Virus record (IMG/VR): IMGVR_UViG_3300007542_000242
Span: 1 to 21,141 of that record
Strand: one strand, 5' to 3'
Length of the DNA: 21,141 nucleotides
Origin: a virus
The notes under the pieces were generated by a model that saw only the letters and a list, made by a program, of their open reading frames with translations, made no database searches and was not told the DNA's origin. Below, in pieces: positions 2,790 through 18,997 of this stretch; within the stretch, counting starts at the first letter, position 1; the number at the start of each line of letters is the position of its first letter. The position numbers were made by a program, and so were the translations under genes.

Positions 2790-2896
2790 TGCAGGTACCT
2801 ATCTGGAGCAAGGGTGTCTTTGTGTGGGTGGACCTCACCGAGGAACTGTTCTACAAGCTGTGGAGTAGAGAGAATGAGAGAGTACAGAGTGGGTGA
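2786..2896 (+). CDS. hypothetical micro-protein, 36 aa
   Basis: Begins M-M-Q-V-P-I-W-S-K-G-V-F-V-W-V and ends in a helix L-T-E-E-L-F-Y-K-L-W. The ATG overlaps the preceding stop in the ATGA fashion typical of this genome. The frame stays open upstream to a GTG at 2699 with a possible GAGGA site, which would give 65 aa, so the start is uncertain. Its 3' end overlaps the start of the next gene by 23 bases. Confidence 0.42.
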   Translation: MMQVPIWSKGVFVWVDLTEELFYKLWSRENERVQSG

Positions 2897-3050
2897 CTGC
2901 ATAGGTTACCATGGAAGCCACACTATCATAGAAGAGGTTGTAGACGACAGGCTGTACGGCTATTGGTTTGAGTGGAACCGTATTTATGGCGATCTTACAT
3001 GGACCGGAGCCTACGAAGTAGACAGCCACATCCCCAAAGAGTATTGCTGA
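2874..3050 (+). CDS. IPKEY-family micro-protein, 58 aa (member 1)
   Basis: First of nine micro-proteins that share a C-terminal I-P-K-E-Y-x. The N-terminus Y-R-V-G-D-C-I-G-Y matches V-Q-V-G-D-C-V in the 3094 member and V-E-G-D-C-F in the 11137 member. The body alternates hydrophobic residues (T-I-I-E-E-V-V ... Y-G-Y-W-F-E-W) like a small SH3-type or KOW-like barrel; the fold is inferred only. Here the motif is encoded CCC AAA GAG TAT TGC, a weak Shine-Dalgarno, yet the peptide is intact. A possible 18-codon frame starts on its stop (TGATG). Start ATG at 2874 lies inside the end of the preceding frame. Confidence 0.65.
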   Translation: MREYRVGDCIGYHGSHTIIEEVVDDRLYGYWFEWNRIYGDLTWTGAYEVDSHIPKEYC

Positions 3051-3106
3051 TGAACATCTTCTATCTGTGCTCTGCACGAAGGGAGACACCTGAATGGTAC
3101 AAGTAG
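3050..3106 (+). CDS. possible 18-aa coupling frame
   Basis: M-N-I-F-Y-L-C-S-A-R-R-E-T-P-E-W-Y-K. Its ATG overlaps the previous stop (TGATG), and its R-R-E codons hold AGGGAG, the ribosome-binding site for the 3094 start within it. It may carry ribosomes between two IPKEY genes rather than encode a working peptide. Confidence 0.25.
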   Translation: MNIFYLCSARRETPEWYK

Positions 3107-3276
3107 GAGACTGTGTTACAACTAGAACTGGTAACTACGGGGTAGTTCAAGAGCAACGGGTACCCGGAAGTTGGTGGGCCTTGTTCCTGAAAACGGCATG
3201 GGGAAGTCGGGACTTCGAAAGGCTGCACTTCAAACAGTCTAACGCAAAGGTAGTAATCCCTAAGGAGTATACATGA
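3094..3276 (+). CDS. IPKEY-family micro-protein, 60 aa (member 2)
   Basis: Begins M-V-Q-V-G-D-C-V-T-T-R-T-G-N-Y-G-V-V, close to member 1 and typical of a small barrel with a Gly-Asn turn. Ends V-V-I-P-K-E-Y-T. The last codons CCT AAG GAG TAT ACA TGA contain the ribosome-binding site TAAGGAG and overlap the next gene's ATG (ATGA). AAGGGAGA upstream supports the start. Function unknown; the two adjacent members look like an old tandem duplication that has diverged. Confidence 0.7.
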   Translation: MVQVGDCVTTRTGNYGVVQEQRVPGSWWALFLKTAWGSRDFERLHFKQSNAKVVIPKEYT

Positions 3277-3904: not shown

Positions 3905-4085
3905 CGTGTGGATTGCAACTGGGTTGTGCCTTGTATTCTGTTGTCTGTTCTACTACCTTGGTTGGGTCAGGGGTGTTAACCGTACTGCTCTTGCTGCTTA
4001 TACCAAGGGAGTGAATGACGCAGTGGAACTGGTGACAAGAGAGATCAACAAGATGATCGAGAAGGAAGGTAGTGATGGGGAATAA
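3897..4085 (+). CDS. small membrane protein, one TM segment, 62 aa
   Basis: A hydrophobic stretch at residues about 4-23 (V-W-I-A-T-G-L-C-L-V-F-C-C-L-F-Y-Y-L-G-W) is followed by a charged helix, giving a type-I-like or N-out anchor with a cytoplasmic or periplasmic tail. The ATG overlaps the preceding stop; GGGGAG lies about ten bases upstream. In-frame starts further upstream are possible but would overlap the preceding gene more. It could be a superinfection-exclusion or spanin-like small membrane protein, but nothing specific supports either. Confidence 0.6.
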   Translation: MIDVWIATGLCLVFCCLFYYLGWVRGVNRTALAAYTKGVNDAVELVTREINKMIEKEGSDGE

Positions 4086-4467
4086 AGTAATCTATTCAAT
4101 CGACAACGTGGCTAACTTAAGGCAACTCGCCAAGTTTACCAGTCACATGGACAAGCTGGAGGCTGGAGGTAAAACTCTAGGGAATACAATCCCTTGCATC
4201 GGTGCTTATGATTCAAAGCTTGAAGTATCCTTCGTAAGTACCGAAGAAGATTACAAGAATCACGTTGTACCCTATGGGTTTGTAGATAACCAAGAGAGTG
4301 TAATCCTTCTTGGTCCTGACAACGTAGCCTACCTTAGCGACAACCTGCTGCATACATCTGAATACCTTGGCCGTATGGTGCAGGTGAATGACTACGAAGA
4401 CTTAGACGACGAACAAGGATGGACATACAGGATGGACCAGAATGAGTACTACCATGTTTCCACCTAG
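4075..4467 (+). CDS. hypothetical acidic protein, 130 aa
   Basis: Unrecognised, soluble, mixed alpha/beta. Residues about 35-85 look like a beta sheet, and the C-terminus is very acidic (D-Y-E-D-L-D-D-E-Q-G-W). Start placed at the ATG at 4075 with AAGGAAGG upstream, rather than the in-frame GTG at 4072; it overlaps the preceding stop by 11 bases. Fifteen bases separate it from the next gene, one of the few real gaps in this stretch. Confidence 0.7.
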   Translation: MGNKVIYSIDNVANLRQLAKFTSHMDKLEAGGKTLGNTIPCIGAYDSKLEVSFVSTEEDYKNHVVPYGFVDNQESVILLGPDNVAYLSDNLLHTSEYLGRMVQVNDYEDLDDEQGWTYRMDQNEYYHVST

Positions 4468-4482
4468 AGGAAAGGAACTACC

Positions 4483-4752
4483 ATGTGGGTAATCTGGGAA
4501 GACAGACAAGAACGGAGAGATAGACTAGCGGAGTACGGAAGAGCACCCGATGTCTTCGAACAAGATGGATGGTACTGTAACGATAAGTACTCTCGCAAAG
4601 TAGACCGTGGTGACATCAAGAATGCTAAGATATTTATGAACAAGAGGGCCTTAGCCCAAGGTCTTTCATGGGCATGTGGTGAACCCACTGTCTACGAAGT
4701 TGAAGTAACTGTAACCCCTATCAAGAAAACTACACTCGGAGAAATCAAATGA
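4483..4752 (+). CDS. hypothetical protein, 89 aa
   Basis: Unrecognised. Begins M-W-V-I-W-E-D-R-Q-E-R-R-D-R-L-A-E-Y; the middle is lysine-rich (D-I-K-N-A-K-I-F-M-N-K-R-A) and the end is a beta strand V-Y-E-V-E-V-T-V-T-P-I. AGAGGAAAGGA upstream supports the start. It overlaps the AAA+ ATPase gene by four bases (ATGA), so its product is made in step with that enzyme, but no link in function can be shown. Confidence 0.65.
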   Translation: MWVIWEDRQERRDRLAEYGRAPDVFEQDGWYCNDKYSRKVDRGDIKNAKIFMNKRALAQGLSWACGEPTVYEVEVTVTPIKKTTLGEIK

Positions 4753-6320
4753 CTAACTACATTCAAGAAGCAGGTCAACACTACTGGCCGAACATTGAAG
4801 AAGCAACCAAGACCAACATCCAGAAGATTCTTCACGTCTGTAAGCGGATGTTCAACGACAAAGAACCTTCCTTCTATAACGAGATGGAGAAGAAGTTCGA
4901 CAAGACTTTCTACAACATCCTCAAGGAACTCCCTGCTGGTACTGTGTTCGCACTAATCACCGGGGATATCCCTGTTGAAGAGTTCAAGACTTGGTTGTCC
5001 TCCAAGAACAAGGAGACTAACTTCAAGGACATCGGACCTGATCGCTACACTGACTCCGAGTGGCCGGTGAAAGTAGTCAAGGCAATGGAGACTCTGGCTG
5101 AGGCAAGCAAGGGTAACTACAAGGAGACTACCGAAGAGAGTGTAGCCTCTGGTGGTATATCTCAGGAAGCCTTTGATGAACTCAGGGCCAAGCTGGACCG
5201 AGAGTATCGAGAGAACAAGAACCTTTCGGACCAGAAGGATGCCCTTCAGAAACTCTTCGAAGAGACTGAGACTAACTACAAGGAGAAGCTTAAAGAGTTG
5301 TCATCCTCTAGGGTGAAAGAAGAACTTGAGGGGTTGACAATCGGAGAGGGAGACCTTACTTCTACTATCACCATGCGTCCTGCCAAGGAACTGTTCTTCG
5401 GTGTGACTGATAACAACATCGAGGTGCCTGTCTTTGAGTGGAAGGATGCCGAGGGTAACGTGGTTGCTCACCCGGATATCCCCAAGCAAGACCCCAAGTA
5501 TCTCTTCCGTGAGAAGGAGTTGACTCGTGTGCTCTATGCTCTGATGACTAACCAGAGGATGTACCTGCATGGCCACACTGGTACTGGTAAGACTACCCTC
5601 ATCGAACAGGTAGCAGCACACCTTAACTGGCCTGTACTGCGGATCAACTTCGACTCTGAGATCACTCGCATGGACTTGATTGGTAAGACTGATCTGGTTG
5701 CTGATGGTGGTACGACTACAACTCAGTGGCAGGATGGTCTGCTCCCCAAGGCAATGTCTAATGCTTACATCGCTATCTTTGACGAGATTGACTTCTGCCG
5801 TCCTGATGTTAGCTACGTAATGCAGGCAGCTACCGAAGGGAATGGTATGACTCTGCTTGAGGACGGTGGACGTAAGGTGTATCCGCACCAGATGTTCCGT
5901 ATGTTCGCTACTGGTAACACGGTAGGCCAAGGGGATGAGTTCGGTATGTACCAAGGTGCTCGTGCTCAGTCTCTTGCCTTCCTTGACCGCTTCACTATCT
6001 GGCAACGAGTGGACTATCTGCCTGCTGACAAGCGTAAGGAACTGGCTCAGAGTGCAGCACCTACCCTCAAGTCTGAGATCGTGGATCGTATCAGTAAGTA
6101 CGTCACTGAACACCTTGAAGCCTTCACTGGCAACAACGTACTCCAGCCTATCTCTCCTCGTGGTATGATGGCAGTGGCTAAGGCAGCAGAGTTCCTGTCT
6201 CTTAACGGTGCCTCAGATAAAGATGCACTGAGCGAGGCTCTGGATATGGTGGTGCTTGATCGTTGTACTCAAGAGGATCGTGCGGTACTCAAGGGGATTA
6301 AGGATCGGGTATGGAAATGA
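4749..6320 (+). CDS. MoxR/CobS-like AAA+ ATPase
   Basis: ATP-driven remodelling enzyme of the MoxR/CobS branch. Residues 1-130 are helical and unmatched; 139-190 is a charged coiled coil. The AAA+ core follows, with Walker A G-H-T-G-T-G-K-T (275-282), Walker B I-A-I-F-D-E-I-D-F (341-349) and a sensor-1 asparagine in A-T-G-N (about 390). The region after residue 395 gives the arginine-finger and lid part (L-D-R-F-T ... P-I-S-P-R-G). MoxR proteins usually act with a vWA partner to insert metals or remodel complexes, and the next gene is exactly such a partner, overlapping by ten bases. Phage members are often labelled cobalt chelatase CobS-like; the label describes the fold, not proven B12 synthesis. 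The long N-terminal extension is unlike ordinary MoxR. Confidence 0.9.
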   Translation: MTNYIQEAGQHYWPNIEEATKTNIQKILHVCKRMFNDKEPSFYNEMEKKFDKTFYNILKELPAGTVFALITGDIPVEEFKTWLSSKNKETNFKDIGPDRYTDSEWPVKVVKAMETLAEASKGNYKETTEESVASGGISQEAFDELRAKLDREYRENKNLSDQKDALQKLFEETETNYKEKLKELSSSRVKEELEGLTIGEGDLTSTITMRPAKELFFGVTDNNIEVPVFEWKDAEGNVVAHPDIPKQDPKYLFREKELTRVLYALMTNQRMYLHGHTGTGKTTLIEQVAAHLNWPVLRINFDSEITRMDLIGKTDLVADGGTTTTQWQDGLLPKAMSNAYIAIFDEIDFCRPDVSYVMQAATEGNGMTLLEDGGRKVYPHQMFRMFATGNTVGQGDEFGMYQGARAQSLAFLDRFTIWQRVDYLPADKRKELAQSAAPTLKSEIVDRISKYVTEHLEAFTGNNVLQPISPRGMMAVAKAAEFLSLNGASDKDALSEALDMVVLDRCTQEDRAVLKGIKDRVWK

Positions 6321-8119
6321 AAACACAAGAGTTCATTCACGAATCTATCGGAGTTACCGATGTCTTTGGCCGTAAGTCTGGAGTCAAGGTAGTCTTCGAA
6401 GGAGATCAGGCCCATACTGATGGAGAGACTATCATTATCCCATCTCTTCCTCAAGACAAGGTGATGAGTAAGCACTCAGTTGGTGTAGCCCGAGGGTATA
6501 TCGACCACGAGTCTGCCCATGTACGCTTCACTGATTGGGATGTATCCAAGAAGTTGTTCAAAGAGTGTGCGGAGCACAACCGTCCTTCACTCAAGGCAAT
6601 CACTAACTGCGTAGAGGATATGTTCATTGAGCGGGAGTACATGAAACTCTACCCCGGCTCGGAAAGAAACCTTAACACTCTCTGCACTGACATTAATGTA
6701 CGAGAGGTAGAACATATCAAGGCACTGCCTGAGGACCAGAGAACAGGAGTTAACCTTGGTACAGTAGCCTCAGGTATCCTTGCCCGTGGTCGTCGTGACT
6801 ACGTGGATACCTCAGAACTCTGGGACTGTGTACCTGATAACGTCAAGGCTCACGCAGAGAAGTGGCAAGAGCATATCGACAAGATAGAGTCTACCTCAGA
6901 TTCTATTCGTCTTGCCAAGTCTATCTACAAACTGCTGAGAGAGGACCCTAACCTTGAGTCTGATCCCGAGGACTTCAACCCTGAGGATGACGACCTCTCT
7001 GATGTAGCTGATGGTGATGGAGAGTTGTTGCCTAAGGGTATGAAGGAGGAGTACGGTGAGGCTGGTGAGGCTCTGGGGGAAGCACTCTCAGAGGATGGAG
7101 AGTCTGGTCCTGCTGAACTTGGTGAGGGTAGTGGTGCTAAGGGATTAGCTAACGGTAAGGGTGCCCTTGGTTACACTGTGTACACTACCAAGTATGATAC
7201 AGTACTCCATCGTCGTCTCCCCAAGCCTAGCGAAGAATCCCGTATGGACAATCCTCCCTTCTGGACTGGCACTCATGAAGGCTACGCCAAAGACAAGTCT
7301 CGTCTTCAGTCTCAGATCACAGTGATGAAGTCTAAACTCCAGAGAGTGATTGCGTCCAAGGAGATGAGAGACTGGGACTTTGGTAGAGAACAGGGCAGGT
7401 TGGACTCCAAGAGATTCTCTAGTGCCATGACTGGACAGAAGAATGTCTATAAGAGACGCACTGATCGTATTGAGATGGATACTGCTATCAGTATTCTTGT
7501 GGACTGTTCTGGTTCCATGTCTAGTGGAGGTAAGATCACTCTGGCTAAGCAAGTGGCTATTGTTCTTGGTGAATGCTTCGAAGGTACCGGAGTCAAGTAC
7601 GAGATCGTAGGGTTTACTAATCATTATGCTAACATGCGCGATACTATTAACAGACTAGTCTACAAGGGTGAGAAAGAAACCAAAGTCTATCATAGGATTG
7701 AACCACTTCAATTGATGATGTTCAAAGAGTTTAACGACAGGCTCCGAGATGCTCAACCATTCATCAACGCTATCGACATGGTAAGTATGGGTAACAACTC
7801 GGACAGAGATGCTATTCAGTTCGCTGCTAACAGATTGAGTAAACGTCCAGAGTCTAGGAAGATTCTATTCACTCTATCTGATGGTTCACCAGCCAACTCC
7901 TGTAGTAATTCTGTGGACAGTAAGGACCTTATTCGTGGAGCTAAAGAGGCGGTAGACGAAGCATCCAAAGAGATTGAGTGCGTTGGTATCGGTATTCAAG
8001 ATAGTTCAGTGAAGAGAATCTATCCTAACTATGCAGTGGTGAACAACCTCGAAGAACTCCAGAGTACCGTGATGAGAAAGCTGTCTGCTATTCTCACTGG
8101 TGGAAAGGTGAGACTATGA
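6311..8119 (+). CDS. CobT-like vWA protein with HExxH motif
   Basis: Partner of the AAA+ ATPase. Near the N-terminus is H-E-S-A-H (66-70), a perfect HExxH zinc-protease signature, followed by E-D-M-F-I-E-R-E (102-109) that could give the third ligand. Residues about 212-275 are strongly acidic and low-complexity, as in CobT. The vWA domain follows with MIDAS D-C-S-G-S (398-402) and later conserved acidic and threonine positions (D-R-D-A-I-Q; L-S-D-G-S). Putative metallopeptidase plus vWA architecture is known in proteins paired with MoxR ATPases. Start at 6311 is preferred because AAGGA is six bases upstream; an ATGA-overlapping ATG at 6317 is the alternative. Whether the HExxH is an active protease is unknown. 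Confidence 0.85.
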   Translation: MEMKTQEFIHESIGVTDVFGRKSGVKVVFEGDQAHTDGETIIIPSLPQDKVMSKHSVGVARGYIDHESAHVRFTDWDVSKKLFKECAEHNRPSLKAITNCVEDMFIEREYMKLYPGSERNLNTLCTDINVREVEHIKALPEDQRTGVNLGTVASGILARGRRDYVDTSELWDCVPDNVKAHAEKWQEHIDKIESTSDSIRLAKSIYKLLREDPNLESDPEDFNPEDDDLSDVADGDGELLPKGMKEEYGEAGEALGEALSEDGESGPAELGEGSGAKGLANGKGALGYTVYTTKYDTVLHRRLPKPSEESRMDNPPFWTGTHEGYAKDKSRLQSQITVMKSKLQRVIASKEMRDWDFGREQGRLDSKRFSSAMTGQKNVYKRRTDRIEMDTAISILVDCSGSMSSGGKITLAKQVAIVLGECFEGTGVKYEIVGFTNHYANMRDTINRLVYKGEKETKVYHRIEPLQLMMFKEFNDRLRDAQPFINAIDMVSMGNNSDRDAIQFAANRLSKRPESRKILFTLSDGSPANSCSNSVDSKDLIRGAKEAVDEASKEIECVGIGIQDSSVKRIYPNYAVVNNLEELQSTVMRKLSAILTGGKVRL

Positions 8120-8286
8120 GGTGTTCCTGCTGCGACACAGATGAAAGACTTAAGTACGACAAGGACACTAACAAGTTCTACTGTACCCACTGCTGGGGAG
8201 AGATCAAGGAGAACTATAAGCAGTTAAAGAACGGAGGGTTTACCTTCAGAGACTTGAACTATATCTTCTTCGGAGAGGAGCAATGA
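8116..8286 (+). CDS. zinc-ribbon micro-protein, 56 aa
   Basis: M-R-C-S-C-C near the start and F-Y-C-T-H-C-W about 20 residues later give two Cys-x-x-Cys-type knuckles, so the protein probably binds zinc. The rest is helical and ends F-F-G-E-E-Q. Its ATG overlaps the vWA stop, and its own stop overlaps the next ATG (ATGA on both sides). The E-E codons (GGA GAG GAG) form the next ribosome-binding site. It may bind DNA or RNA or act with the primase, which has its own zinc finger; no evidence decides this. Confidence 0.72.
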   Translation: MRCSCCDTDERLKYDKDTNKFYCTHCWGEIKENYKQLKNGGFTFRDLNYIFFGEEQ

Positions 8287-8471
8287 ACCTTTGGCAATAC
8301 ATGCGTATAGGAATCTATCTTCTGTATCCTAATAAGGAACAAAGTAGTCTTACGTATTCTCTTTCTGCAGCGAATCCAGATTTTATGAAATTAGTATCAG
8401 ATAAAGATAAATTCCCTAGAAGATTAACTAATTCAGATTTCAAGTTAATAGTACCTGAGGAGTACATGTAA
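8283..8471 (+). CDS. IPKEY-family micro-protein, variant IVPEEYM, 62 aa (member 3)
   Basis: Divergent member ending L-I-V-P-E-E-Y-M. The motif is encoded GTA CCT GAG GAG TAC ATG TAA, which still supplies GAGGAG for the primase-helicase start at 8471 (TAATG overlap). The codons are noticeably richer in A/T than in both neighbours (many TTA, AAT, GAT, AGT), suggesting recent arrival. The body is aromatic and serine-rich, without the V-G-D-C start of other members. It sits exactly between the zinc-ribbon gene and the replicative primase-helicase. Confidence 0.6.
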   Translation: MNLWQYMRIGIYLLYPNKEQSSLTYSLSAANPDFMKLVSDKDKFPRRLTNSDFKLIVPEEYM

Positions 8472-9946
8472 TGGAGACACACCAAGACTGCCCCCACTGT
8501 GGACATAAGGAATGCTACACCGTATTCCCTGACGGTGGTTACTACTGCCATTCGTGTGGAGCAAAGAGCGGAGGAAAGCCATTGGAAATTGAAGAGAGAA
8601 ACTTTGAAACCATTCGTGGTATCGACAAGAAAGTCTGTGAGTTCTATGGTACTACTGTAGACTATGACTCTCTTGGTAATGCAGTACGACACACCTACCC
8701 CTACCCCCATGCTGAGAAATACCGCTACCTTCCTAAGGACTTCTCAAAGAACAAGGGGTTCACAACAGATCATCTCTTCGGGCAGGACAAGTTCAACCCC
8801 GGCTGTGCCAAGTATATCACTATCGTAGAGGGTGAGCTTGATGCTATGTCTGCCTATCAGATTCTCGGTAAGAGGTGGCCGGTAGTCTCTCTGCCTTCGG
8901 CTAGTATCAGCAGGAAGTTGTTGCAGAATGTACACGAATACTTGAACTCCTTCGAGAGTATCGTTATCTGTACTGATGGTGACGATGCAGGGAAGAAGGC
9001 CAGTGATACACTCTGTGAAGCATTCCCCGGTAAGGTATGGAGAGTCAAGCTAGAGAAGCACAAGGATGCTAATGCTTTCCTTCAGGCTGGTGACGAGGAG
9101 AGTTTCAAATGGTCATGGGTAAACAGAGAACGGTATGTTCCTTCTAACGTTTACAACAACAAGTCTGACTTTGATTCTATCCTTGACGACGACGAGACTA
9201 ACACCTTCATCCCTACTCCTATCACTGACTTCAACAAGCTGTGTAAGGGGCTGATGCAAGGCCACCTCACTGTGATTACAGGACCGGAGGGGCAGGGTAA
9301 GACAGAGGTGATGCGTCTCTTCGAAGCAGACATCCTTATGAACCATGACATCCCTATCGCAGTGCTGCATATGGAGGAGAGTAAGAAGACTTGCCTGTTG
9401 TCTTTGGCTTCCTACGTACTGGGTATCAACCTTCGGGACCCCGAGCATGGTGTGCCTCAGGAGGATATCAAGGCAGCGATAGACAAGCTGAACGCCAAGA
9501 AGAACCTGTTCCTCTTCGAGCTTGGTATTGACGAGGACCCACTCAGTATCATGGACAAGGTGCGTATGCTTACTTCTGTCTACGGCTGTAGGTACATCTT
9601 CATCGACCCTATCCAACAGCTTAGCTACGGCAAGGATAAGGACTCTACGGAGGAACAGGTGCTCACCAAGATCAGTGTACAATTGGAACGTATCGCCACT
9701 GAGTTCAATGTGGGTATTGTCTGTACTACTCACGTCAATGACGATGGACAAACTCGGAGCAGTCGTATGATTGGTAAGTCTGCCAGTGTGCGTATTGATC
9801 TTCAGCGAGACCATATGAATCCTGACCCTGACATTCGTAACCAGACCAAGCTGATGGTGTCAAAGAACAGACCTATCGGCCCTACTGGGTTTGCTGGTGT
9901 GTTGGAGTTTGACCCCGGCAGCTTCACTCTTAAGGAGATGGTATGA
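8471..9946 (+). CDS. T7 gp4-type DNA primase-helicase
   Basis: Makes primers and unwinds DNA at the phage fork. The N-terminal zinc finger has C7, C10, C26 and C29. The TOPRIM part has V-E-G-E-L-D-A (E120) and T-D-G-D-D-A-G (169-174). The RecA-like helicase domain, from about 245, has Walker A G-P-E-G-Q-G-K-T (271-278) and Walker B Y-I-F-I-D-P-I-Q-Q (375-383), followed by a T-T-H-V switch-type region. At 491 aa it is shorter than T7 gp4 (566), mainly between finger and TOPRIM, so primase activity is likely but not certain. The C-terminus L-K-E-M-V is encoded over TTAAGGAG, which starts the next gene. It partners the T7-like polymerase and SSB downstream. Confidence 0.93.
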   Translation: METHQDCPHCGHKECYTVFPDGGYYCHSCGAKSGGKPLEIEERNFETIRGIDKKVCEFYGTTVDYDSLGNAVRHTYPYPHAEKYRYLPKDFSKNKGFTTDHLFGQDKFNPGCAKYITIVEGELDAMSAYQILGKRWPVVSLPSASISRKLLQNVHEYLNSFESIVICTDGDDAGKKASDTLCEAFPGKVWRVKLEKHKDANAFLQAGDEESFKWSWVNRERYVPSNVYNNKSDFDSILDDDETNTFIPTPITDFNKLCKGLMQGHLTVITGPEGQGKTEVMRLFEADILMNHDIPIAVLHMEESKKTCLLSLASYVLGINLRDPEHGVPQEDIKAAIDKLNAKKNLFLFELGIDEDPLSIMDKVRMLTSVYGCRYIFIDPIQQLSYGKDKDSTEEQVLTKISVQLERIATEFNVGIVCTTHVNDDGQTRSSRMIGKSASVRIDLQRDHMNPDPDIRNQTKLMVSKNRPIGPTGFAGVLEFDPGSFTLKEMV

Positions 9947-10116
9947 GGTACAATCTTTTAATTACTCTCCGACCTACGGACTATGGGTATGGATGGGAGA
10001 TAAGGCCCGGAGTCTCGTACCCCTTAGGCCATCATAAATTCCCTACCGTATGCTGTTCTGGAACCACCAGAGACCCAGATAAGTACAACAAGAAGATACC
10101 TAAGGAGTACACCTGA
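9943..10116 (+). CDS. IPKEY-family micro-protein, 57 aa (member 4)
   Basis: M-R-Y-N-L-L-I-T-L-R-P start, a Y-G-Y-G-W-E-I strand, a Cys-Cys pair, and end N-K-K-I-P-K-E-Y-T. Starts on the stop of the primase-helicase using the TTAAGGAG at that gene's end. Its own CCT AAG GAG TAC ACC TGA supplies the site for the next member, whose ATG overlaps the stop (TGATG). It forms a two-gene array with the 10116 member between helicase and polymerase. Function unknown. Confidence 0.68.
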   Translation: MRYNLLITLRPTDYGYGWEIRPGVSYPLGHHKFPTVCCSGTTRDPDKYNKKIPKEYT

Positions 10117-10298
10117 TGCAAGCAGGAGAAGTCTGGAAGAATAAGTATTCACCAACCACTCTGGTATTAGGGCGAAGTACTAGGTTTTATTTCTATAACG
10201 GGGATGGGAATGCTCTCTTCGGTAGGTATGCCTGCTGTACTGTTAGTCTTAATAATCCTAGCGAGTGGAAAAAGATTATTCCAAAGGAGTACGCATGA
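10116..10298 (+). CDS. IPKEY-family micro-protein, 60 aa (member 5)
   Basis: Begins M-Q-A-G-E-V-W and continues with beta strands (T-L-V-L-G-R; R-F-Y-F-Y-N-G-D-G), ending K-K-I-I-P-K-E-Y-A. The 3' end CCA AAG GAG TAC GCA TGA overlaps the polymerase exonuclease-half ATG and provides its ribosome-binding site. Barrel-like alternation resembles the other members, but outside the C-terminus identity to them is low, which implies old divergence or convergence on the terminal motif. Confidence 0.68.
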   Translation: MQAGEVWKNKYSPTTLVLGRSTRFYFYNGDGNALFGRYACCTVSLNNPSEWKKIIPKEYA

Positions 10299-11158
10299 AG
10301 TTATTCGTATCAGACATCGAGACTGACGGGTTCGATCCTAGTGTGATCCATTGCTTCTTCGGTAAGGTGGTGGATACGGATACTTGGAAGGTAGAGGGAA
10401 CTGAAAGATGGGTAGACTTAAATAGTTTCGATACCCCAGACGTACCAGCAGTAACTCCAGTATTCCATAACGGATTGAACTTCGATGTCCCGGTACTTAA
10501 CAAGTTCTATCACGGACTTATTGATCCCCACAAAGTAGTGGATACCTTCGTGTCCTCTCGTCTTATTAACTATAGTAAGTTCCGTACTCATGGTCTAGAG
10601 GAACTTGGACGCTATCTCAAGATGCCTAAGGGTACATTCAATGGGCCTTGGGATAAGCGTACCAAGGAGATGGAAGACTATTGCTGGCAGGATGTAGACG
10701 TAACCATTGAAGTATTGAAACACTACTGGCCTCAGATCAGTGACCCCTCTTGGAAGAAAGCTCTCAGAGTAGAGCATGAGATGGCTATCATCTGTAAGGA
10801 CATGCAGGACAATGGGTTCTACTTCAACGACGAGAAGGCTCTGGATATTCTCCACGATGTACAAACAGAGCAGGCTACTCTTGAGGCTTCATTCAAGAAG
10901 GAGTTTCCACCCCACAGAGTAGAGACTAAGAGGATCAAGTACCGTACCAAGAAGGATGGCTCTCTGTTCTCTGGTGTATCCAAAGCACTAACAGAATACC
11001 CTGACCACGAGAGGGACGGAGAAGACTTGGTGTGCTACACTAAGCAAGAGTTTAATCCCGGTTCACCAAGAGATCGTATTGACGCCCTGTGGGATGCCGG
11101 GTGGAATCCATACCTCAAAACGAAAGGACACAAGAAATGGTTAAGAGAGTCCCGGTAG
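10295..11158 (+). CDS. split family A DNA polymerase, exonuclease half
   Basis: Carries the 3'-5' proofreading domain: Exo I V-S-D-I-E-T-D-G (D7, E9), Exo II H-N-G-L-N-F-D (D64) and Exo III Y-C-W-Q-D-V-D-V-T (D133). The start of the polymerase module follows, up to F-N-P-G-S-P-R-D-R-I and G-W-N-P-Y-L-K-T-K-G-H-K-K. In T7 polymerase the same F-N-P-S-S-R-D-H-I region runs straight on towards the palm; here the frame stops after W-L-R-E-S-R, and two micro-genes intervene before the polymerase half. By alignment from memory the break falls near T7 residue 360, in the thumb. The first micro-gene begins inside the last 22 bases. The two halves would have to assemble to make a normal enzyme. Start at 10295 is fixed by ATGA overlap and AAAGGAG. 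Confidence 0.9.
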   Translation: MKLFVSDIETDGFDPSVIHCFFGKVVDTDTWKVEGTERWVDLNSFDTPDVPAVTPVFHNGLNFDVPVLNKFYHGLIDPHKVVDTFVSSRLINYSKFRTHGLEELGRYLKMPKGTFNGPWDKRTKEMEDYCWQDVDVTIEVLKHYWPQISDPSWKKALRVEHEMAIICKDMQDNGFYFNDEKALDILHDVQTEQATLEASFKKEFPPHRVETKRIKYRTKKDGSLFSGVSKALTEYPDHERDGEDLVCYTKQEFNPGSPRDRIDALWDAGWNPYLKTKGHKKWLRESR

Positions 11159-11307
11159 AGGGTGACTGCTTCATTAGTAAGTCTGGTGAACTAAAATGGA
11201 TTTGCCTTAAGGACTCTAAGAAACAATACAACTTCAACACAGGAAGAGCGGTCAACTCCCATGTGGTCACTGCATTCGAAATCCTAATCCCTAAGGAGTA
11301 TACCTAA
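11137..11307 (+). CDS. IPKEY-family micro-protein inside split polymerase, 56 aa (member 6)
   Basis: M-V-K-R-V-P-V-E-G-D-C-F-I-S-K-S-G start resembles members 1 and 2 (V-G-D-C); end E-I-L-I-P-K-E-Y-T. It begins out of frame within the last codons of the polymerase exonuclease half, where polymerase codons for K-G (AAA GGA) act as its ribosome-binding site. Its CCT AAG GAG TAT ACC TAA serves the next member (TAATG overlap). An in-frame ATG at 11089 would extend it further into the polymerase and is less well supported. Confidence 0.68.
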   Translation: MVKRVPVEGDCFISKSGELKWICLKDSKKQYNFNTGRAVNSHVVTAFEILIPKEYT

Positions 11308-11522
11308 TGGCCTACAATGGAGTATGTGTCACTGAGTATAGTGCTGGGAGTGGAGATTATGTAGATGATTGCTGCCTTGTCCACGACTCTATGGTAGTGT
11401 TTACCTTTCGAAGAGATACAGGGTGCGATTACATGGTATTACCTCGTAGACCTTTCAGAGTAGATGACCCAGATGACGGTGTCAGATCAGTTGAAGTAGT
11501 AATCCCTAAGGAGTACACATGA
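11307..11522 (+). CDS. IPKEY-family micro-protein inside split polymerase, 71 aa (member 7)
   Basis: Longest member. M-A-Y-N-G-V-C-V-T-E-Y start, a D-D-C-C pair, M-V-V-F-T-F-R-R strand, and end V-E-V-V-I-P-K-E-Y-T. The terminal CCT AAG GAG TAC ACA TGA overlaps the ATG of the polymerase half and is its only evident ribosome-binding site, so this micro-gene is needed for the second half of the enzyme to be made. Function of the peptide itself unknown. Confidence 0.7.
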   Translation: MAYNGVCVTEYSAGSGDYVDDCCLVHDSMVVFTFRRDTGCDYMVLPRRPFRVDDPDDGVRSVEVVIPKEYT

Positions 11523-12541
11523 TAGAAGACAAGGAAGAACATTACAAAAGGTACGGATGGGAGGTCAACGAGGAGAACCTGTCCACTCTACCAGCTACAG
11601 CACCACAGGCAGCAAGGGATTTGACCAAGTGGTTAACTCTTGAGGGTAGACGTAAGCAACTGGAGGATTGGTTAGCTAACCTGAACAGAGACACCAACTC
11701 TATTCACGGTAAGTTCTGGCCTATCGGTGCTTGGACGCATCGGATGGCACACACCAGCCCTAATGCCGCCAACATTGTGTCTGTCTTTAGTGGTACACCA
11801 GAGACACCAGTAGAAGAAGTAAAGGAAAAATACGATGGAGAGATGCGGTCCTGTTGGGAGGCTGATCCGGGTGCATGGCTTGTGGGTACTGACGCTGATG
11901 GTATTCAGTTGCGTATCCTTTGTCACTACACCAAGTCTGCTGTACTCAGGGACGCTATTGTATCCGGTGATAAGTCAGTGGGTACAGACATCCACTCAAT
12001 GAATCAGAAGGCTCTTGGTCCTATCTGTAAGACCAGAGACGACGCCAAGACATTCATCTACGCTTGGCTCCTAGGTGCTGGTATCCCCAAGATAGCTAGT
12101 ATTCTCAAGTGCACCATGCCTCAGGCTAAGGAAGCAGTGGATAACTTCCTGTCTGCTTATCCAGAGTTGAAGAGGTTGAAGAACGTCACCATTCCTAGAG
12201 ATGCAGCAAGAGGATACTTCATCGGTCTTGATGGACGTAAAGTACAGTGTGACTCTGAACACCTGATGCTGGCTGGATACCTACAGAATGGTGAGGCTGT
12301 GGTGATGAAGCACGCTAACGTACTCTGGAGGAAAGCACTAGATGAATTCTTTTATCAGTACAAGCAGGCAAACTTCGTACACGACGAATGGCAAACGGTA
12401 GTCTTTGGAGGACGAGACAATGCAGAACAAGTCGGGTTGATACAGAGACAAGCTATCATAGACACAGGACATGACCTGAGCCTGTTCTGCCCATTGGATG
12501 GTAGCTATAGCGTAGGTAGAAATTGGCGCGAAACCCATTAG
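11519..12541 (+). CDS. split family A DNA polymerase, polymerase half
   Basis: Contains the whole catalytic palm and fingers: motif A G-T-D-A-D-G-I-Q-L-R (catalytic D125), motif B R-D-D-A-K-T-F-I-Y-A-W-L-L-G-A-G (R173, K177, Y181, equivalent to T7 R518, K522, Y526) and motif C V-H-D-E-W near the C-terminus. The first 25 residues (H-Y-K-R-Y-G-W-E-V-N-E-E-N-L-S-T-L-P) continue the region interrupted in the upstream half. Translation starts on the stop of the second embedded micro-gene. 287 + 340 residues gives 627, somewhat below T7 polymerase (704), consistent with lack of the thioredoxin-binding insert. All catalytic residues are present, so the split gene looks functional rather than decayed. 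Confidence 0.92.
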   Translation: MIEDKEEHYKRYGWEVNEENLSTLPATAPQAARDLTKWLTLEGRRKQLEDWLANLNRDTNSIHGKFWPIGAWTHRMAHTSPNAANIVSVFSGTPETPVEEVKEKYDGEMRSCWEADPGAWLVGTDADGIQLRILCHYTKSAVLRDAIVSGDKSVGTDIHSMNQKALGPICKTRDDAKTFIYAWLLGAGIPKIASILKCTMPQAKEAVDNFLSAYPELKRLKNVTIPRDAARGYFIGLDGRKVQCDSEHLMLAGYLQNGEAVVMKHANVLWRKALDEFFYQYKQANFVHDEWQTVVFGGRDNAEQVGLIQRQAIIDTGHDLSLFCPLDGSYSVGRNWRETH

Positions 12542-12556
12542 AAAGGAGACACACTA

Positions 12557-12739
12557 ATGCAAGAGACTAGACAGGTTAACACTAGGTACGTAGGTATTGG
12601 TTGGCTAAGTAAAAAGGCTAGGGAACTCAGGCTGCCCAAGGAGAAGGTAGAATCTATCAGACATCCTGATGCACGTTACGTAGGAAAGGGATGGTATGAG
12701 TACACCTACGAGACAGACATCCCGTGGGAATACCGATGA
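12557..12739 (+). CDS. IPKEY-family micro-protein, variant IPWEYR, 60 aa (member 8)
   Basis: Ends E-T-D-I-P-W-E-Y-R, a variant of the family motif encoded CCG TGG GAA TAC CGA TGA, with the embedded ribosome-binding site largely lost. It has an internal repeat R-Y-V-G-I-G-W (about 10-16) and R-Y-V-G-K-G-W (about 41-47). A strong GAAAGGAG precedes the start, 15 bases after the polymerase stop. The next member's ATG overlaps its stop (ATGA). Motif placement and context support family membership; the body differs from the others. Confidence 0.6.
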   Translation: MQETRQVNTRYVGIGWLSKKARELRLPKEKVESIRHPDARYVGKGWYEYTYETDIPWEYR

Positions 12740-12906
12740 AGAGCGGGGTGTTGTCCGATCATGGATTAGGTATTTACTCTCTTATCTACAAGAGTGCCGA
12801 TACCGTTTACTACTTCCCTACAGGGTCATCTCTCGAAACTAAATTCAGTTCGGTAGAGAGACTGGGCGAAGGCTACAAAGAAGTGATCCCGAAGGAATAT
12901 TGTTAG
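12736..12906 (+). CDS. IPKEY-family micro-protein, 56 aa (member 9)
   Basis: M-K-S-G-V-L-S-D-H-G-L-G-I-Y-S-L-I-Y-K start, then D-T-V-Y-Y-F-P-T-G strand, and end K-E-V-I-P-K-E-Y-C. The motif is encoded CCG AAG GAA TAT TGT TAG: the Shine-Dalgarno is weakened, and the next gene has its own AAAGGA after a gap, so the peptide motif persists where it is not needed for translation. The start overlaps the preceding stop. Confidence 0.65.
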   Translation: MKSGVLSDHGLGIYSLIYKSADTVYYFPTGSSLETKFSSVERLGEGYKEVIPKEYC

Positions 12907-12913
12907 AAAGGAC

Positions 12914-12942
12914 TTGACATCATGCTCGATACGTGTTATAAC
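12914..12942 (+). promoter_or_regulatory. candidate sigma-70 promoter upstream of ssb
   Basis: TTGACA (12914-12919), a 17-base spacer and TATAAC (12937-12942) make a near-consensus bacterial promoter in one of the few spots without a tight gene overlap. A second TATACT follows at once. It overlaps the first codons of a small frame (12922), and would drive the ssb and nuclease genes. Seen by consensus only. Confidence 0.5.
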
Positions 12943-13065
12943 TATACTATAAGGGAAGGAGAAGAAGACTACTACGTACTAGTAGATGACTATGAACTTA
13001 AGGAATACCATAGTGATTGGTATTATTCTTTCAAAGAAGAGGAGAACTCTAAGTATGGCTACTGA
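12922..13065 (+). CDS. hypothetical acidic tyrosine-rich micro-protein, 47 aa
   Basis: Very acidic and rich in tyrosine (G-E-E-D-Y-Y-V-L-V-D-D-Y-E-L-K-E-Y), a composition seen in DNA-mimic or inhibitor peptides, though that is speculation. AAAGGA lies about eleven bases upstream. Its E-E-E codons (GAA GAG GAG) form the ribosome-binding site of the ssb gene, whose ATG overlaps its last 11 bases. Its first codons overlap the candidate promoter, so it may not be made from that promoter's transcript. Confidence 0.5.
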   Translation: MLDTCYNYTIREGEEDYYVLVDDYELKEYHSDWYYSFKEEENSKYGY

Positions 13066-13519
13066 ATTTGTGAAGCTCAAGGGTACCGCCAAGTGGGCAC
13101 GAGTCTTTGAGGACAACCGAGACCTCTACGGTTTCGAAGGTGCTGCCAAGGAATACGGTGGGCAGTATGTTATTGATGTCTACGCTGACAAGGAGAATCT
13201 GGATAAGCTCAAGGCTTCCGGTTCTCGTATCCGTCCCAAGCTTGACACTGATGGGAAGATGTTTGTCAAGTTCAAGCGTAAGCACGAAGGTCCTTTCGAG
13301 GCTGCCAGTGGTGCACCTAAGGTAACCAACAAGGCAGGGGATGTATGGTCCTTTGAGGATGATGGACCTATCGGTAACGGCTCTGAGGTAGAGGTAGACC
13401 TTGTCGTCTATGACACCAGAATGGGTAAAGGTACTCGTCTTGAGGGGGTGAAGGTGTTGAGCCTTGTGGAGTACAAGGAGACTTCTGGTCCTCGTGAGAA
13501 AGAAGAGGAGTTGTTTTGA
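13055..13519 (+). CDS. gp2.5-like single-stranded DNA-binding protein
   Basis: 154 aa beta-rich protein starting M-A-T-E-F-V-K-L-K-G-T-A-K-W-A-R-V and ending in an acidic tail with terminal aromatic (E-K-E-E-E-L-F), the layout of T7 gp2.5, whose acidic tail and last phenylalanine contact polymerase and helicase. The middle K-R-K-H-E-G-P-F-E and V-D-L-V-V-Y-D-T strands fit an OB fold. An in-frame upstream ATG (12986) would add 23 unlikely residues; GAGGAG before 13055 fixes the start. Genes for its likely partners (polymerase, helicase) lie just upstream. The final codons hold GAGGAG for the TTG start of the nuclease. Confidence 0.82.
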   Translation: MATEFVKLKGTAKWARVFEDNRDLYGFEGAAKEYGGQYVIDVYADKENLDKLKASGSRIRPKLDTDGKMFVKFKRKHEGPFEAASGAPKVTNKAGDVWSFEDDGPIGNGSEVEVDLVVYDTRMGKGTRLEGVKVLSLVEYKETSGPREKEEELF

Positions 13520-16567: not shown

Positions 16568-18329
16568 CTACGGACCTACTCTTCCAATCTCGGAAGAAAT
16601 CCACTCCATGAAGTACCGCCTCAAGGGGGAGACATTCAAGGAGGCTATGTCCCGAGTGGCTCAGTCTCTCTCGGATGGTAACGAACACTTCGAGAAGTTC
16701 AGGGACATTCTCTACAACCAGAGATTCCTTCCTGCTGGGCGTATTCAGTCTGCTATGGGTAGTCCTCGTGTGGTTACACCGTACAATTGTTTTGTCTCGG
16801 GGACTATTAATGATTCCATGGACGACATCATGGACAAGGCTAAAGAAGCAGCGGAGACAATGAGACTCGGAGGTGGTATCGGTTATGACTTCTCTACTCT
16901 ACGGCCTAGGGGTGCTAATATCCGCAGTCTTGATTCACGATCTAGCGGTCCGGTATCTTTCATGGGAATCTACGACGCTCTCTGCAAAACTATTTCGTCT
17001 GCTGGCCATCGTCGTGGTGCTCAGATGGGCGTACTTAGAGTGGACCATCCAGACATCGAAGAGTTTATCACTGCAAAGAACAACTCCAGTAAGCTCACAG
17101 ACTTCAACATCTCAGTAGGTATCACTGACAAGTTCATGGAAGCAGTGAAAGAGGATAAGCCCTTCGATCTTGTCTTCGATGGCCGAGTGTACAAGACAGT
17201 GAATGCTCGTAACCTGTGGGATTCTATTCTCCGTAGTACATGGGACTGGGCTGAGCCGGGAGTTCTCTTCATCGACAGGATGAACTACAAGAACAACCTC
17301 TGGTACTGTGAGACTATCGCAGCAACCAACCCCTGCGGTGAACAACCTCTGCCTCCCTATGGTGCTTGTCTTCTCGGCAGCTTCAACTTGGTGAAGTACA
17401 TCAAGGACGGAGTAATCAAAAGCCACAGCTACTACGGAGAGGACACTTACGGTAAGGTCTTCGACTACGAGATGTTCAAGAATGACATCCCCTTCGTAGT
17501 CAGGGCTATGGACAACGTGATCGATAGAGCAGTATACCCACTCAGAGAACAGGCTCAGGAGGCACTGGACAAGAGGCGTATGGGCCTAGGTGTTACTGGT
17601 CTGGCTAATGCTATCGAGGCTCTGGGATACCCGTATGGTTCTCCTGAGTTCCTTACCCAGATGCAGACAATCATGGGAGTCTTGAGGGATACAGCTTACA
17701 CTGCTTCTATCTCTCTGGCTATCGAGAAGGGGCCGTTCCCTAAGTTCGATCCCGCTATCACTCACTCTGGATTCTACCGTACCCTGCCGTACAGTATTGT
17801 GGAGAACGTAAAGAAGTATGGAATTCGTAACAGCCATCTCCTCTCTATTGCTCCTACTGGTACTATCAGTCTTACTGCGGACAACGTATCGTCGGGTATC
17901 GAACCAGTCTTCTCGCACTGGTATGACCGTACCATTCAAACATTCGACGGAGCAAGAATTGAAAGAGTGGAGGACTTCGGCTATCGTGAATTCGGCATTA
18001 AGGGCAGGACAGCAGACCAAGTCAGAGTAGAGGATCATGTCAAGGTACTCAACATGGCCTCTCAATACGTTGACTCTGCCTGCTCCAAGACCTGTAACGT
18101 GGGTGATGATGTCACTTGGGAAGAGTTCAAGGATGTCTACATGCAAGCCTATGACGGTGGGGCCAGTGGGTGTACTACCTTCAGGGCTTCTGGTAAACGG
18201 TACGGTATTCTTAATGCTTCAAAGGACGAGGAGATTGTAGAAGTGGAGACTAAAGAAGAAGACAACTTTATCGAAGAAGGTGGGGCTTGTTACTTCGACC
18301 CTGCCACTGGTTTGAGGACTTGCGAATGA
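16560..18329 (+). CDS. nrdJ: class II (B12-dependent) ribonucleotide reductase
   Basis: Converts ribonucleotides to deoxyribonucleotides using adenosylcobalamin. 589 aa. Catalytic set: C77 in N-C-F-V-S-G, N-P-C-G-E-Q-P-L (C259, E261) and partner C270 in G-A-C-L-L-G-S-F-N-L; shuttle cysteines near the C-terminus (C577, C588). No separate small-subunit gene follows and there is no ATP-cone domain, both usual for monomeric class II phage enzymes. Start is taken as TTG at 16560, seven bases after AAGGAG and giving M-S-N-Y-G-P-T-L-P-I-S-E-E-I-H; a more upstream TTG (16506) adds 18 unlikely residues. The host or its surroundings must supply B12. Stop overlaps the protease ATG. Confidence 0.9.
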   Translation: MSNYGPTLPISEEIHSMKYRLKGETFKEAMSRVAQSLSDGNEHFEKFRDILYNQRFLPAGRIQSAMGSPRVVTPYNCFVSGTINDSMDDIMDKAKEAAETMRLGGGIGYDFSTLRPRGANIRSLDSRSSGPVSFMGIYDALCKTISSAGHRRGAQMGVLRVDHPDIEEFITAKNNSSKLTDFNISVGITDKFMEAVKEDKPFDLVFDGRVYKTVNARNLWDSILRSTWDWAEPGVLFIDRMNYKNNLWYCETIAATNPCGEQPLPPYGACLLGSFNLVKYIKDGVIKSHSYYGEDTYGKVFDYEMFKNDIPFVVRAMDNVIDRAVYPLREQAQEALDKRRMGLGVTGLANAIEALGYPYGSPEFLTQMQTIMGVLRDTAYTASISLAIEKGPFPKFDPAITHSGFYRTLPYSIVENVKKYGIRNSHLLSIAPTGTISLTADNVSSGIEPVFSHWYDRTIQTFDGARIERVEDFGYREFGIKGRTADQVRVEDHVKVLNMASQYVDSACSKTCNVGDDVTWEEFKDVYMQAYDGGASGCTTFRASGKRYGILNASKDEEIVEVETKEEDNFIEEGGACYFDPATGLRTCE

Positions 18330-18997
18330 GATACCTTCTAGTAATTCTAATGCTACTGGCTACTCCTCTGAGGGCTGACATCCTTGAGGACATCCTCTAC
18401 CCCACTGTGTCTGTCGAGGTAGCTGGAGGTTCTGGTAGTGGTACATCAGTAGCTATTGATCCTATCCTCGGTACTTACATCATCACCAACTACCATGTTG
18501 CTTCTATGGGGGAGGACCTTAGGGTCTTCTTCCATGGAGACAGCAAAGGATACCCTGCCTACATGGTGGCCCACAACGTAGCTTACGATATGGCTATCCT
18601 AGTGACCAGACACAAGGCAGACCACGTGGCTAAGCTTGGCAAGTCCTCTGATGTCTCTCTGTTCAAGGACACTATCTGTATCGGTAACTCCTTCGGTAAT
18701 GGTATCGTGCCATCCAAGGGTATCATCTCTGGTGTTGATGTAGAGATCGGAGGGTATATTAATCTGTTCTACAAGATGGACTGCAAGATCGTACCGGGTA
18801 ACTCTGGTGGTGGTATGTACGTAAAGGTAGGCAACCACTGGGTCTACATCGGTATGCCCTCCAAGGGTATGGTAATCAGGGGACAGTTCTTTGAGCACCT
18901 GTCTGTAGCAGTACGAGTTAAGGACATCAAGGAGTTCCTTGCCTATCACCATGTAATCCCAATCACGGAGGCGTATGACCTTGGAAGACCGTATTGA
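18326..18997 (+). CDS. exported trypsin-like serine protease
   Basis: 223 aa. Residues 1-18 look like a signal peptide (M-R-Y-L-L-V-I-L-M-L-L-A-T-P-L-R-A). The catalytic triad is visible: H57 in T-N-Y-H-V-A-S, D88 in A-Y-D-M-A-I-L and S160 in V-P-G-N-S-G-G-G-M. It resembles the protease domain of DegP/HtrA-type enzymes, but has no PDZ domain. A secreted protease inside a replication/nucleotide operon is unexpected; it might act on envelope proteins during infection or on phage-modified host periplasmic targets. ATGA overlap with nrdJ means it is translated together with the reductase. Substrate unknown. Confidence 0.85.
   Translation: MRYLLVILMLLATPLRADILEDILYPTVSVEVAGGSGSGTSVAIDPILGTYIITNYHVASMGEDLRVFFHGDSKGYPAYMVAHNVAYDMAILVTRHKADHVAKLGKSSDVSLFKDTICIGNSFGNGIVPSKGIISGVDVEIGGYINLFYKMDCKIVPGNSGGGMYVKVGNHWVYIGMPSKGMVIRGQFFEHLSVAVRVKDIKEFLAYHHVIPITEAYDLGRPY

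Follow-up and report, generated by a model that had tools for sequence, protein, structure and literature searches.

Genome-specific C-terminal tags on a family of small, fast-diverging proteins in marine phage replication modules

We found that nine small plus-strand genes (56–71 aa) in the window, the whole 21,141-base stretch of viral DNA analysed here (an IMG/VR virus record), code for proteins with the C-terminus [IV]-P-x-E-Y-x, followed directly by the stop codon; the deviations among them are a single V for I and, at the third position, E for K once and W for K once (Table 1). Such genes recur in a marine phage group, in which each phage bears about 3 to 19 tagged small proteins with an ending of its own. 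The constraint acts on the peptide, the form of the peptide is uniform within each genome, the bodies that it terminates are diverse and weakly related, and the Shine–Dalgarno (SD) signal within its codons is a separate layer. An earlier note on this DNA had suggested that the peptide itself matters, perhaps as a terminal tag or binding motif. A terminal tag or a putative binding motif is indeed the best reading of the peptide, and the present analysis supports and extends it: the tag is C-terminal, takes its own form in each genome and is borne by a family of small proteins that diverge fast, for which we infer docking to a shared partner.

Table 1. Tag genes and their neighbours in the window (positions in bases from its first letter; each tag gene runs to its stop)
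Position	Strand	Feature	Basis or remark
2874..3050	+	Tag gene, ...IPKEYC	Uncoupled; next start 43 nt away
3094..3276	+	Tag gene, ...IPKEYT	
4749..6320	+	CobS-like MoxR-type AAA+ ATPase, clade-specific neighbour	Pfam AAA_5 4e-18, PHROG 249
6311..8119	+	CobT-like VWA protein, intact MIDAS (DCSGSM ... SDG), clade-specific neighbour	Pfam CobT_C 1.6e-28
8116..8286	+	Small zinc-ribbon-like protein, two CxxC, near clade-specific	Recurs beside tag genes across the clade
8283..8471	+	Tag gene, ...VPEEYM	Overlaps primase-helicase gene
8471..9946	+	Primase-helicase	Pfam DnaB_C, Toprim_2
9943..10116	+	Tag gene, ...IPKEYT	
10116..10298	+	Tag gene, ...IPKEYA	Overlaps polymerase exonuclease gene
10295..11158	+	DNA polymerase A, 3'-5' exonuclease half, separate gene	Pfam DNA_pol_A_exo1, 6e-5
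11137..11307	+	Tag gene, ...IPKEYT	Start codon 11137 or 11152, uncertain
11307..11522	+	Tag gene, ...IPKEYT	4-nt overlap with polymerase palm gene
11519..12541	+	DNA polymerase A, polymerase half, separate gene	Pfam DNA_pol_A, 9e-27
12557..12739	+	Tag gene, ...IPWEYR	4-nt overlap with next tag gene
12736..12906	+	Tag gene singled out in the earlier note, 56 aa, IPKEYC at 12886-12903	Not translationally coupled
13058..13519	+	SSB-like gene, right border of tag region	Position, acidic C-terminus

Most gene junctions hold tag genes over a region that begins upstream of CobS and stops immediately short of the SSB-like gene, beyond which no tag gene was found in any mapped genome. The order of the exonuclease and primase genes is swapped between genomes, and the tag genes stay around both. 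The family A DNA polymerase of the window is split into two genes with two tag genes in between; in L112 it is likewise split, with the primase-helicase also between the halves, and in L114 it is fused (621 aa). The acidic C-terminal tips of the SSB-like proteins read EIPF, EVPF, ELF, SWD, LWD, MEW or VGW across the relatives. Elsewhere in the window, a Trypsin_2 serine protease gene lies among nucleotide-metabolism genes (18317-18997, Pfam 5.8e-13), and the stretch 4072-4467 has a weak, below cut-off match to the S-adenosylmethionine lyase family (Pfam PF23780, 2e-4), a possible counter-defence gene.

The set of motifs in the window is not due to chance. The exact pattern ATHCCNAARGARTAYNNNTRATG has four copies in these 21 kb; among the 2.9 million viral contigs scanned for it, 25 contained it, each once and none as a set, and these 25 were rejected as unrelated single matches. 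An unbiased score, contrasting the C-terminal similarity of small ORFs within one contig with that of pairs across contigs, showed enrichment in only a few contigs, the window being one of them (36 similar pairs versus 4.2 expected), and it was this score that first singled out its closest relatives. Relatives were sought with the polymerase palm protein and CobT as baits in the viral contigs and with the polymerase in phage records; the primase as bait returned only two contigs. Small genes of this type sit between the same replication genes in 12 related, Cobavirinae-like contigs of the Zobellviridae. The tally is 119 tagged proteins (about 46–87 aa) in 13 contigs, with two further ones found beyond these (L116, 8979-9200; L118, 11008-11322). 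Their endings are collected in Table 2. The L033 and L125 sets are small, with three tagged proteins each, and L033, which did not stand out in the unbiased scan, was recognised by eye. The L198 tail combines features of both forms of the ending, so that all tails look like versions of one element.

Table 2. Tag consensus by genome
Genome	Consensus	Remark
Window	IPKEYT	
L034	LPxEFFE	
L112	VPxEFLS	Phage T5S1-k141_653015, PQ867845.1, Zobellviridae Cobavirinae
L116	xPxEFxE	
L118	xPKEFx	
L125	LPxEFLT	
L032	FPMEFLI	
L120/L209	LP[KE]EY[MA]x	Also given as LPxEYML
L121	VPxEML	
L114	LPxKYL	
L033	IPxxL	
L198	GPxE[LIV]xxW	
L062	GPxCLVKW	

These phages share their polymerase, primase and RNR gene set with the cobaviruses, roseophages of the Zobellviridae (Cobavirinae), a group in which the tagged relative T5S1-k141_653015 (PQ867845.1) is itself filed; the annotation of its tag genes goes no further than "hypothetical protein". 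A term search of the cobavirus paper turned up neither CobS/CobT nor any C-terminal motif; literature searches returned only unrelated text for the motif itself and nothing relevant on phage C-terminal tags. In the polymerase tree the tag phages form essentially one clade, and the pattern thus reflects few independent events. The contig L130 (1-5239) falls inside this clade, and in its 5.2 kb the CobT, exonuclease, primase and polymerase genes are packed together with no tag genes, which suggests that these can be absent or lost as a set.

The codons of the tag often embed an SD for the next gene, and the earlier note had pointed to two window genes in which that signal is weakened and the peptide unchanged. 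Both cases were borne out. The ORF at 12736-12906 ends in ATC CCG AAG GAA TAT TGT TAG and is followed by an ORF starting at 12922 with its own AAAGGA; the one at 2874-3050 ends in ATC CCC AAA GAG TAT TGC TGA, and the next ORF, 43 nt downstream at 3094, has its own GAAGGGAG. The same separation holds across the 97 P-type tags when these are divided into coupled ones, with the next start codon at −14 to +1 nt from the stop, and uncoupled ones. An SD tetramer is present in 55 of 64 coupled versus 12 of 28 uncoupled tags (Fisher p = 6e-5), the GAG:GAA ratio is 51:5 versus 12:11 (Fisher p = 2.6e-4), and coupled tags often end in ATGA. In contrast, P-x-[ED]-[FYML] is intact in 89% of both classes (57/64 and 25/28), although complete losses would be missed because members are recognised by the motif, a bias that the unbiased scans reduce but do not remove. 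Thus, the loss of the peptide from uncoupled members, which would have spoken against the earlier claim, is not what we see. Selection acts on the peptide in its own right, with the SD superimposed on it and retained only in tags that make use of it.

Codon usage points the same way. The window tags use all four Pro codons, all three Ile codons and both Tyr codons in approximately genome-wide proportions (e.g., CCT for Pro in 5 of 9 tags versus 49% genome-wide), and in comparisons between the motif codons third bases differ in 48% of pairs versus 13% for first and second bases. Motif copies therefore vary as far as synonymous sites allow while the residues are held, and we do not favour gene conversion or DNA exchange at the gene ends, given the background usage of synonymous sites in the tails. 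That the conserved stretch is nothing but the SD and start site of the next gene would account for the SD and GAG preference of the coupled members and their frequent ATGA, and AAGGAG and ATGA do partly explain the Lys, Glu and last residue of the window tags. They do not explain Ile, Pro and Tyr, which, as the earlier note had argued, a ribosome-binding site does not need. Further, uncoupled members retain the peptide through GAA or other codons that form no SD, and the same C-terminal element occurs in relatives without any AAGGAG (CLVKW in L062, IPWCLR in L033 and LPxKY in L114). The test of coupled versus uncoupled codons refutes translational coupling as the full explanation and leaves it only a vanishing probability.

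We then asked how the tags vary between genomes by means of a neutral pattern: any residue, Pro and three free residues near the end, with a few other matches set aside as lying in unrelated or spurious ORFs. The fifth residue is uniform within every genome (93 of 93 tags) and differs between genomes: Y in the window, L120 and L114; F in L034, L112, L116, L118, L125 and L032; M in L121; and L in L033. When the 93 letters were shuffled among genomes, at least 10 mixtures arose, compared to none observed. Tag similarity clusters by genome far more strongly than body similarity (z 15.3 versus 5.2), and bodies that look alike across genomes keep the tail of their own genome—for example, the window gene ending at 12906 (IPKEYC) and L121 8838 (APKEML), or L033 7783 (IPWCLR) and L125 2084 (MPLEFLT)—with the individual pairs being near noise level. 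Bodies are somewhat more alike within than between genomes, and part of the tag uniformity may consequently stem from lineage-specific expansions.

The bodies are almost unalignable and nearly saturated, yet they bear faint family marks. The nine window proteins had no Pfam or PHROGs match at E below 0.01, and the family profile found nothing significant in the PDB (best E 0.86). An N-terminal G[LIVM][YFW] is present in 29% of bodies versus 2% of 1,400 control small ORFs, and GW in 23% versus 4%. A body-only profile trained on eight genomes separated held-out bodies from controls, which may include spurious ORFs, with an AUC of 0.83 overall and 0.89 for L062, being weak for L114. Body pairs with a similarity score of at least 48 numbered 8 within genomes (0.1 in shuffled sequences) and 7 between genomes (0.9 in shuffled sequences). 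We read the tag proteins as probably one old family with extreme divergence. Two AF2 models, one of them of the protein from 12736-12906 and both weak (pLDDT 68 and 63; pTM 0.35 and 0.26), predict two or three strands, a low-confidence linker and a tail forming a short helical turn rather than a strand of the core, with a local pLDDT of 78 and 85 in the tail, the highest or near-highest in the model; a Foldseek search with them found nothing at E ≤ 0.001, a result of little weight given their low confidence. The predicted tail is more like a linear motif than a strand of the core, though not decisively so.

The only clade-specific companions of the tag genes are CobS, CobT and, less strictly, the small zinc-ribbon gene. 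The phage CobS/CobT pair is widely annotated as a cobaltochelatase, and it may instead be a remodelling machine. CobS and CobT are present in every tag contig covering that region, CobT occurs in none of 144 other polymerase relatives, and its MIDAS is intact throughout. In the CbbQO system, the VWA MIDAS of CbbO binds an acidic residue of its client Rubisco (PMC4660213), and the tag Glu could be such a ligand. The tail might then complete the MIDAS of the phage CobT VWA domain through its Glu, with the CobS AAA+ ring remodelling or delivering the tagged proteins. Most genomes have Glu at position four of the tag, and E or D is found in 86 of 97 P-type tags, but the acid is absent from L062, most of L114 and most of L033. 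Moreover, CobT phages outside the clade (CRP-810, ICP2 and about 50 CobT contigs) showed no shared tails, which rejects CobT as a sufficient cause of the tags; L130 has CobT with no tag genes in its 5.2 kb; and as the tag phages are essentially one clade, the association of CobS/CobT with the tags is a single event. We consider CobT an unlikely direct receptor.

The interpretation that we favour, with somewhat better than even confidence, is that these proteins are rapidly diverging paralogues whose C-termini carry a docking motif, read by a shared partner that differs between phages. Under it, the small paralogous proteins between the replication genes would each meet a target of their own through the variable body, while the last six residues (phi-P-x-E-aromatic-x), the putative docking motif selected at the peptide level, would engage one common partner. 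A change in the binding site of that partner between phage lineages would have changed all tails of a genome together, seen as the concerted replacement of Y at residue 5 by F, M, L or W; the ATGA start and the SD within the tail codons would be a dispensable second layer coupling translation of the next gene. The candidate partners are the phage's own CobS/CobT AAA+-VWA pair and a host protein. We entertain more tentatively a phage-private peptide code, in which a co-evolving phage-encoded receptor, possibly CobS/CobT, would read the C-terminal address of its own small-protein arsenal.

The main rival to docking on a shared partner, in our view rather improbable, is a structural one: the motif would close one small fold and so stabilise each protein, its genome-specific form being a relic of expansion from one ancestor per phage. 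The weak homology of the bodies, their slightly greater likeness within genomes, the ability of the body-only profile to find the family across genomes and the position of the motif, always terminal after beta-like hydrophobic residues, are in keeping with this. However, the bodies are nearly saturated while the tails are uniform, a structural residue is expected to wander equally within and between genomes, as residue 5 never does, and the weak AF2 models put the tail outside any sheet. Self-assembly, with the tails binding each other or a common groove on sister proteins and the interface drifting in concert, would explain genome-specific uniformity without an outside partner and suits the 3 to 19 members per genome; yet we see no conserved groove, since the bodies hardly align, and consider it a poorer candidate still than binding to CobT. 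A virion or compartment targeting signal, with its receptor in the capsid, scaffold or a host compartment, would fit a common tail on differing small proteins that co-varies with that receptor, but the tag genes belong to the replication module, end at the SSB-like gene and are away from the structural genes; we hold this quite implausible.

Known systems offer partial parallels to docking on a shared partner. In phage T4, an N-terminal, cleaved capsid-targeting sequence is common to several unrelated internal proteins and read by one receptor. The tag would similarly be one short terminal signal on several different small phage proteins; unlike the T4 sequence, it is C-terminal and carried by replication-module genes. 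The C-terminal tip of bacterial SSB (DxIPF), a short hydrophobic and Pro-containing motif that docks many partners, resembles the tag in make-up, but SSB is a hub with one tail, whereas here many proteins carry tails. Mimicry of the SSB tip was rejected, as the SSB-like tips of these phages do not co-vary with the tag residue. We know of no common terminal tag on the substrates of MoxR-VWA remodelling systems. As with CbbQ/CbbO and other MoxR-VWA pairs, an AAA+/VWA pair is present, and most tags have a conserved acid, as do ligands of the VWA MIDAS (PMC4660213); the differences are that several tags lack the acid and that pair and tag co-occur only at the level of the clade.

Were the phage-private peptide code true, the cargo bodies would be free to change, with the address compatible within a genome and not between genomes. 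To our knowledge, the majority of small genes in phages lack an assigned function and diverge too far to be grouped. The shared tail groups up to 19 proteins per genome as one system without alignable bodies, and it predicts a common binding partner that could be fished for with one synthetic peptide. With the residue switching from phage to phage (Y, F, M, L or W), tail swaps would be a direct test of specificity, and the tags would give functional access to the phage CobS/CobT pair and its putative role in these phages.
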